In this document: in pieces, positions 24,753 to 40,169 of the stretch
How positions within the stretch are numbered: position 1 is the stretch's first letter
Layout: each line of letters begins with the position of its first letter
DNA from: Alphaproteobacteria bacterium
GTDB lineage: Bacteria; Pseudomonadota; Alphaproteobacteria; JABAAW01
Reading direction: 5' to 3'
Assembly (NCBI GenBank): GCA_014238315.1
Contig: JABABG010000114.1
Coordinates: 1-40,169, forward strand
Length of the DNA: 40,169 nt
Made by a program: the position numbers and the translations under genes
Notes under the pieces: generated by a model
What the model was told of the DNA's origin: nothing
Database searches by the model: none
Seen by the model: the letters and a program-made list of their open reading frames with translations, nothing else

Positions 24753-24808
24753 TCTACCAGCCTAACTCTACCAGCCTAGCTCTACCAGCCTAGCTCTACC
24801 AGCCTAGT
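24753..24808. repeat. 14-bp tandem repeat x4 (TCTACCAGCCTARY)
   Basis: tctaccagcctaac / tctaccagcctagc / tctaccagcctagc / tctaccagcctagt, intergenic. Confidence 0.95.
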
Positions 24809-38594: not shown

Positions 38595-39119
38595 ATGAGC
38601 CTACCTGCTATCCATCCCAGACTTTACCAGTCGAGACTAGCTTTATTGCGCGTGTTTTTTTTGATTGCACTATCGTTTAGCTATTTTTATTTTTCGAGTG
38701 CTTCAATTGCTGCGGAGCCAGAACCAGACGCTGTGGTTAAGTTCCGTAAGTTTTTGATGCGCGAGATAGAATCCTCGCTTGTTTCGTCTTTTTTACTAGC
38801 TAAGGGTGAGGTATCGGACGCGCCCTCGGTATTGTTGCAGGCTCAGATTCTCTCGCTTGCTGCCGAGCGTTCTGGCGCGTCATTTTCATTCCGCACGCGC
38901 GGTTTGCAAGAGGAGACGAGCGCGCACGATCGAGTTTGGACGGAGTCGGAAGACTTCCAGTCGCTTATGCGCGAGTTTGCTGCATCGGCGAAATCTTTTG
39001 CGGATTTAGCGAAGAGGAGCGAGCAGGACGAGACCCTGCGTGCATCGCTTGGCTCTGCTTTGGGGGGGTTAGGCAAGCAATGCAAGTCTTGTCACAAGCG
39101 CTATCGCATTGACAAGTAA
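38595..39119 (+). CDS. Cytochrome c' (class II c-type cytochrome)
   Basis: Signal peptide, four-helix-like region, C-terminal haem motif CKSCHKRYR (CxxCH). Confidence 0.87.
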   Translation: MSLPAIHPRLYQSRLALLRVFFLIALSFSYFYFSSASIAAEPEPDAVVKFRKFLMREIESSLVSSFLLAKGEVSDAPSVLLQAQILSLAAERSGASFSFRTRGLQEETSAHDRVWTESEDFQSLMREFAASAKSFADLAKRSEQDETLRASLGSALGGLGKQCKSCHKRYRIDK

Positions 39120-39142
39120 TTCGCCTTGCTCGCGCAAGTTTC

Positions 39143-39353
39143 TTTGCCCTAACTTATTTGCCCTAACTTATTTGCCCTAACTTATTTGCCCTAGCTTACT
39201 TTCCCTAGCTTACTTTCCCTAGCTTACTTTCCCTAGCTTACTTTCCCTAGCTTACTTACCCTAGCTTACTTTCCCTAGCTTACTTACCCTAGCTTATTTT
39301 TCCTGGCTTACTTTCCTTGGGTACATTTTCCTTAGCTTATTTCCCCTAGCAGA
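39143..39353. repeat. Degenerate 14-bp tandem array, about 15 units (TTTGCCCTAACTTA -> CTTTCCCTAGCTTA)
   Basis: Unit by unit: 3x tttgccctaactta, tttgccctagctta, 4x ctttccctagctta, cttaccctagctta, ctttccctagctta, cttaccctagctta, then degenerate ttttt/cctggctta, ctttccttgggtac, attttccttagctta, tttcccctagcaga. Confidence 0.95.
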
Positions 39354-39380
39354 ATGTTTTTTGTATTTGTTTTGTAGATT

Positions 39381-40169
39381 ATGATTTCTGGTCTGCAATT
39401 AGTTATGGCGGCGCAGGGAGTTTTACTGCTCGCCCTATCGTTTTCGATGTTAGTCCCGGCCTTTGTAGACTATCTTGGCGCGGGACAATCTTTCAGGTCA
39501 TTTCTTCTTTCGTCTGCGATTATTTTAGTTTTAGGCGGCACGGTTTTACTTTCTTCGATGCGCGCTCTTTCAATTTCGCGCACGCAGATTTCCTATCGAG
39601 ATTCTTTTTTGATTACTGTTGGCGCGTGGGTAGTTGTTGGAGTTTTTGGAGCTTTACCGTTTGTTTTTGCGCTAGACGATTTTTCATATACGGACGCTTT
39701 ATTTGAATCGCTATCTGGTCTTACGACTACGGGCTCTACTGTCATCACTAATTTAGACGATTTGGCGCATGGCTTATTATTTTGGCGCTCGCTACTGCAA
39801 TGGCTCGGAGGTATAGGGATTATCGTAACGACGGTGTTACTATTTCCCTTGCTGCGAGTAGGCGGCATGCAACTTTTCCGTGTCGAGCTTGCTGGTCAAG
39901 GCGAGAAGGCGGTTGCGCGATTAGGACCACTTGTTTCTTGGATTATCGTTATCTACATTTTTTTAACTTTTTCTTGCGGGCTTCTTTACTGGATTTTCGG
40001 GATGTCGGTTTTCGATGCGGTCAACCATGCGATGACGACTGTTGCGACGGGGGGCTTTTCGACCCACAACGAGTCTTTTGGTTTTTTCGATGATTTCCGC
40101 ATAGAGTTAGTTGCGGTAGTTTTCATGATACTAGGCTCGATGCCGTTAGTATTGTATTTACAGATTTTA
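39381..40169 (+). CDS. TrkH family potassium uptake protein, N-terminal part (truncated by window edge)
   Basis: Frame open from ATG 39381 to the window end: MISGLQLVMAAQGVLLLALS...FGALPFVFALDDFSYTDALFESLSGLTTTGSTVITNLDDLAHGLLFWRSLLQWLGGIGIIV...MTTVATGGFSTHNESFG. Absent from the ORF track because it has no stop. Confidence 0.93.
   Translation, partial: MISGLQLVMAAQGVLLLALSFSMLVPAFVDYLGAGQSFRSFLLSSAIILVLGGTVLLSSMRALSISRTQISYRDSFLITVGAWVVVGVFGALPFVFALDDFSYTDALFESLSGLTTTGSTVITNLDDLAHGLLFWRSLLQWLGGIGIIVTTVLLFPLLRVGGMQLFRVELAGQGEKAVARLGPLVSWIIVIYIFLTFSCGLLYWIFGMSVFDAVNHAMTTVATGGFSTHNESFGFFDDFRIELVAVVFMILGSMPLVLYLQIL

Follow-up and report, generated by a model that had tools for sequence, protein, structure and literature searches.

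A 14-bp tandem array upstream of trkH in an uncultured alphaproteobacterium, probably a locus-private minisatellite produced by a genus-wide mutational process

The 14-bp tandem array that separates the cytochrome c' gene from trkH in an uncultured alphaproteobacterium (a draft genome of 1.54 Mb in 130 contigs, 84% complete) is probably a recently born, locus-private minisatellite that has no dedicated function and is a product of a mutational process operating throughout the genus. The array lies near the end of the window, i.e., the whole stretch of 40,169 bp that was analysed, which is contig 78 of this draft, and this part of the window contains the following features:

38595 to 39119, plus strand: cytochrome c' gene, upstream of the array (profile match, PF01322, 1.7e-16).
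39125 to 39138, plus strand: small hairpin followed by TTTCTTT just past the cytochrome c' stop, weakly terminator-like and within chance.
39142 to 39350, no strand: 14-bp tandem array of about 15 head-to-tail units (TRF and shuffles).
39143 to 39198, no strand: left block of three TTTGCCCTAACTTA units plus the hybrid TTTGCCCTAGCTTA (read from the sequence).
39199 to 39296, no strand: homogenised centre of CTTTCCCTAGCTTA and CTTACCCTAGCTTA units (read from the sequence).
39297 to 39353, no strand: right-hand part of degenerate units, including one of 15 bp (read from the sequence).
39381 to 40169, plus strand: trkH, downstream of the array and cut by the contig end (profile match, PF02386, 6e-35).

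An earlier note on this DNA had described some 15 units of 14 bp, and this array is real: TRF reports a period of 14, 14.8 copies, 86% matches, 1% indels, the consensus unit CTTTCCCTAGCTTA and a score of 246, compared with a maximum of 63 when the window was shuffled 30 times with dinucleotides preserved. Also in agreement with that note, the array takes up most of the intergenic gap, about 80% of the 261 bp from the cytochrome c' stop (39119) to the trkH start (39381), and its units are contiguous and head-to-tail, with none of the unique spacers that distinguish a CRISPR array. Reading the units from the sequence recovers the same left variant block, homogenised centre and degenerate right-hand part: three copies of TTTGCCCTAACTTA, the hybrid, four copies of CTTTCCCTAGCTTA, the series CTTACCCTAGCTTA/CTTTCCCTAGCTTA/CTTACCCTAGCTTA, and four degenerate units. 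The alternation in this series suggests a single two-unit, 28-bp duplication, and the degenerate units are probably the oldest part of the array. Block homogenisation together with the two-unit alternation points to expansion via slippage or unequal exchange. Each unit of the main block contains TAG or TAA, which the 14-bp period carries through all frames, so that no protein can be read through the array. Head-to-tail units of about 10–60 bp above chance and a difference between related genomes are the marks of a minisatellite; the TRF score provides the first, and the absence of the array from the same gap in congeners G001, G002 and G004 provides the second.

The comparison covered four congeners (G001–G004) and G005, a member of the same order, i.e., six genomes with the source genome. 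When two consecutive units are searched as a pattern that tolerates as many as three mismatches, the studied locus is the only match in all six. The search for the unit elsewhere in the genome that the earlier note had suggested yields no pairs in the source-genome sequence searched, and the 10-mer CCCTAGCTTA occurs outside arrays twice, compared with 0.9 expected, which is near chance; dispersed copies of the unit are thus rejected. In G004, a lone CTACCCTAGCTTA with the core of the window unit adjoins a 15-bp array at about position 14395 of L160, perhaps by chance. The order of the cytochrome c' gene and trkH is kept in the three congeners whose gap was read (G001, G002 and G004), with both flanks alignable and no array in between; in G004, the closest congener, with a 95% identical TrkH, the gap is about 70 bp. 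From these alignments, the array would have arisen locally after the split from G004 or have been lost there, gain being the simpler reading because the array is absent from all three congener gaps. Given the same gap without an array in the closest congener and two others, the array is probably recent and dispensable for trkH.

The studied array is one of many. A 521-kb sample of the source genome (40 contigs or parts of contigs, three of which are given as N, and the window) contains 337 non-overlapping TRF arrays with many different units, i.e., 64.6 per 100 kb compared with 0.6 in shuffles, and extrapolation gives about a thousand arrays in the whole genome. Among the 337, the trkH-side array is in second place for copy number and in seventh for score; the neighbouring arrays carry other units. 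Strong arrays (at least three copies, score of at least 80) number 22.2 per 100 kb in the source genome and 24.8 in G002 (61 kb sampled), 8.7 in G004 (57 kb), 3.9 in G001 and 3.1 in G003 (32 kb), the samples of G002, G004 and G003 being small, compared with 0.6 in the order relative G005 and, separately, 0.5 in an outgroup of 65 trkH loci from other, mostly alphaproteobacterial genomes, which represents the surroundings of trkH and not a random genome sample. Arrays with at least three copies are thus about 40 times denser here than in the order relative or the other trkH loci. On the window contig itself, the density is 20 per 100 kb for all arrays and 10 per 100 kb for strong ones, the latter about 20 times the outgroup level, as calculated from four arrays. 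By rough ORF calls, there are 43 arrays in 21.8 kb of tandem gaps, 21 in 14.7 kb of divergent gaps and 10 in 11.1 kb of convergent gaps, with no clear preference, so a bias of gap orientation as a sign of regulation was rejected. The strongest array of the sample, a 76-bp unit in 5.7 copies (L127, 2041–2472), is unlike the 10–17 bp class. Three sister arrays in the window were detected by TRF:

166 to 210, no strand: intergenic array of 15 bp x 3, absent in the closest congener.
1241 to 1292, no strand: in-frame array of 12 bp x 4.3 within the gene spanning 415–2232.
24753 to 24807, no strand: intergenic array of 14 bp x 3.9.

Comparison with congeners indicates that such arrays are gained and lost, to judge from aligned flanks. 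For 12 array positions, the flanks could be aligned to G004 or G001; at none of them is the same unit found in the congener, and three of the 12 have a different array close by. Likewise, about 17 kb around recA is collinear with G004 and contains 19 arrays here and five there, with no unit in common. The four-residue repeat encoded at 1241–1292 is absent at that point of the G004 gene copy. A few bases from the matching site, G004 has a 12-bp array of its own with another unit; parallel births of the two arrays in one tolerant loop are possible. For the trkH-side array, a change in copy number is plausible from the sequence comparison, given the absence of the array from congener gaps, the block-wise homogenisation of its units and the arrays at many contig ends.

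The lengths of the duplications suggest a common process. Exact tandem duplications of any period were counted without a score, which avoids the TRF threshold, and with crude gene calls (ORFs of at least 100 aa). In non-coding DNA of the source genome, they form a single peak at 10–17 bp with a mode of 14, the period of the studied array; because the score-free counts give the same peak, the TRF detection threshold was rejected as its origin. Non-coding exact duplications of 9–24 bp amount to 2019 per Mb here, compared with 153 and 73 per Mb in two outgroups. Within ORFs, only periods 12 and 15 stand out, and among the arrays of the genus with at least three copies, the period is divisible by three in 98% within ORFs vs 40% outside. 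The non-coding peak and the two periods in ORFs are most simply read as the outcome of one duplication process that favours a certain step and of purifying selection on the reading frame that filters its products.

The composition of the units is not random either. In the source genome (L110–L149 and the window), CTTG/CAAG is found in 36% of the 10–17 bp units, with 15% expected, and in 41% vs 14% of the units of arrays with at least three copies, a 2.4- to 2.9-fold enrichment that is present separately in coding and non-coding arrays; GGG/CCC is found in 38% vs 21% expected, and CpG and four-base palindromes are depleted. The CpG depletion recurs in G001, G002 and G004; the CTTG enrichment was not seen in the units of G001 or G002. 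This non-random composition counts against plain slippage from local sequence and may reflect a sequence-directed process or selection on the units.

Taken together, the minisatellite would have originated from a genus-wide process in which tandem duplications arise preferentially at a step of about 10–17 bp (mode 14) and would then grow as one or two units at a time are duplicated locally, most likely via strand slippage during replication or repair. Non-coding DNA would accumulate products of any period, and genes would mainly retain the frame-preserving 12- and 15-bp ones. We infer that the array is neutral and that its copy number continues to change, so that it is possibly variable in length. 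Among the repair genes tested, no absence accounts for the excess: MutS, RecA and Pol I with a 5' nuclease domain are present in the source genome, with the motifs of this nuclease apparently intact. The DxE motif that opens the 3'-5' exonuclease domain of Pol I reads DTS here (L251) and DIE in G002 (L254), and the Pol I of G001 (L252) lacks the DxE pattern at this point. By these motifs, proofreading may have been lost in some members of the genus. A tentative suggestion is that a duplication process not described before, and in part directed by sequence, operates in the genus, seeds arrays at a physical step of 10–17 bp (mode 14) and reshapes proteins and gaps throughout the genome, the studied array being among its largest products.

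The earlier note had proposed that the copy number of the array might alter trkH expression through the spacing of the promoter or the leader length, that is, that the array is a contingency (phase-variation) element. The array ends about 30 bp before trkH begins, which suits this idea, and tandem repeats in the 5' leaders of Moraxella uspA1 and uspA2 are a precedent in which such repeats tune the genes (reviewed in PMC4679880). Nevertheless, a trkH switch or spacer is improbable, given that congeners keep the gene pair without an array, with a gap of about 70 bp in the closest. The sequence features examined lend no support to an effect on expression: a search for sigma-70-type promoters finds none in 38900–39500, the array has no ORF, the RNA fold of the gap is within chance (z of -0.13), the minus-strand DNA fold is less structured than in shuffles, no Rfam family is detected in the window at gathering thresholds, and terminators show no clear excess (2 found, 1.1 expected). 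Hundreds of comparable arrays are found within genes and, whatever the orientation of the flanking genes, in gaps, so that the position before trkH needs no special explanation; a trkH-specific role of the array is possible but unsupported. Even less probable is an array of binding sites for a protein or RNA, in which the unit would be a regulator site as in iterons or the TAACTGA repeats of Beggiatoaceae. The near-identical, evenly spaced central units and the GGG that recurs every 14 bp on the minus strand are compatible with it, but a shared regulator would reuse its site, and the unit pair occurs nowhere else in the genome or congeners; moreover, neighbouring arrays have different units, and no replication gene is adjacent.

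A different alternative concerns the origin of the duplications: a nuclease or repair activity that cuts near CTTG or G-rich motifs could produce staggered ends about 14 nt long, and their filling and rejoining would seed arrays. This agrees with the narrow 10–17 bp step and with the enrichment of CTTG/CAAG and GGG/CCC in units of both coding and non-coding arrays. However, the main block of the studied array lacks CTTG, G001 and G002 have a similar range of periods without CTTG enrichment, and the six genomes yielded no Ku. Ku-dependent end-joining of staggered breaks is disfavoured, and the scheme as a whole is about as improbable as the trkH switch; were it correct, it would be the seeding step of the minisatellite explanation and not its opposite. 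An assembly artefact, in which short reads were mis-joined or expanded into the array, is very improbable. The assembly is probably a short-read one because sister MAGs bear NODE-style contig names, and of 61 contig ends, 15 fall within arrays, a sign that assembly was disturbed, so that copy numbers and lengths may be inaccurate and long arrays may be lacking. Still, the variation among the units of the array is ordered, the sequences on either side of it align to the corresponding gap in congeners, and the congener assemblies contain arrays of this kind with units of their own. The contigs of the bin vary in GC (0.44–0.57) and in array density (6–240 per 100 kb, e.g., L126 and L135); the dense ones might come in part from a close relative through mixed binning, or reflect regional heterogeneity.

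Taken alone, the array is an ordinary minisatellite. Taken with its genome, it belongs to a natural record of the lengths of bacterial tandem duplications, free in non-coding DNA and filtered to 12 and 15 bp in genes, and the narrow step of about 14 bp calls for a physical cause such as a polymerase or helicase footprint, a repair patch or a staggered nick. In practical terms, short-read MAGs of such bacteria break at these arrays and under-count them. The arrays resemble bacterial minisatellites and VNTR loci in their short head-to-tail units, block homogenisation, and gain and loss between relatives, but differ in a density and a narrow 10–17 bp step that are far above those of the outgroups examined. 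In another alphaproteobacterium, Ehrlichia ruminantium, tandem repeats are numerous, lineage-specific and variable in copy number, with units of about 150 bp; the arrays described here are likewise numerous and lineage-specific but have far shorter units. The TAACTGA direct repeats of Beggiatoaceae and Cyanobacteria form many short arrays, some just upstream of start codons, and this heptamer is reused at 169 sites, mostly adjoining start codons (PMC4679880). In contrast, the unit pair studied here is private to one locus among six genomes instead of being common to many intergenic sites, and arrays also occur inside genes. There is also a likeness to the long simple sequence repeats of prokaryotes described by Mrazek's group, whose work, as summarised in the review cited below, reports a genome-wide distribution, many units, a preference for multiples of three in genes, heptanucleotides as the commonest class in most genomes among units of 5–11 nt, and a proposed step length linked to the polymerase (PMC4679880). 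The present arrays share the genome-wide spread, the many units and the excess of multiples of three in genes, but their mode is 14 and their range 10–17 bp.
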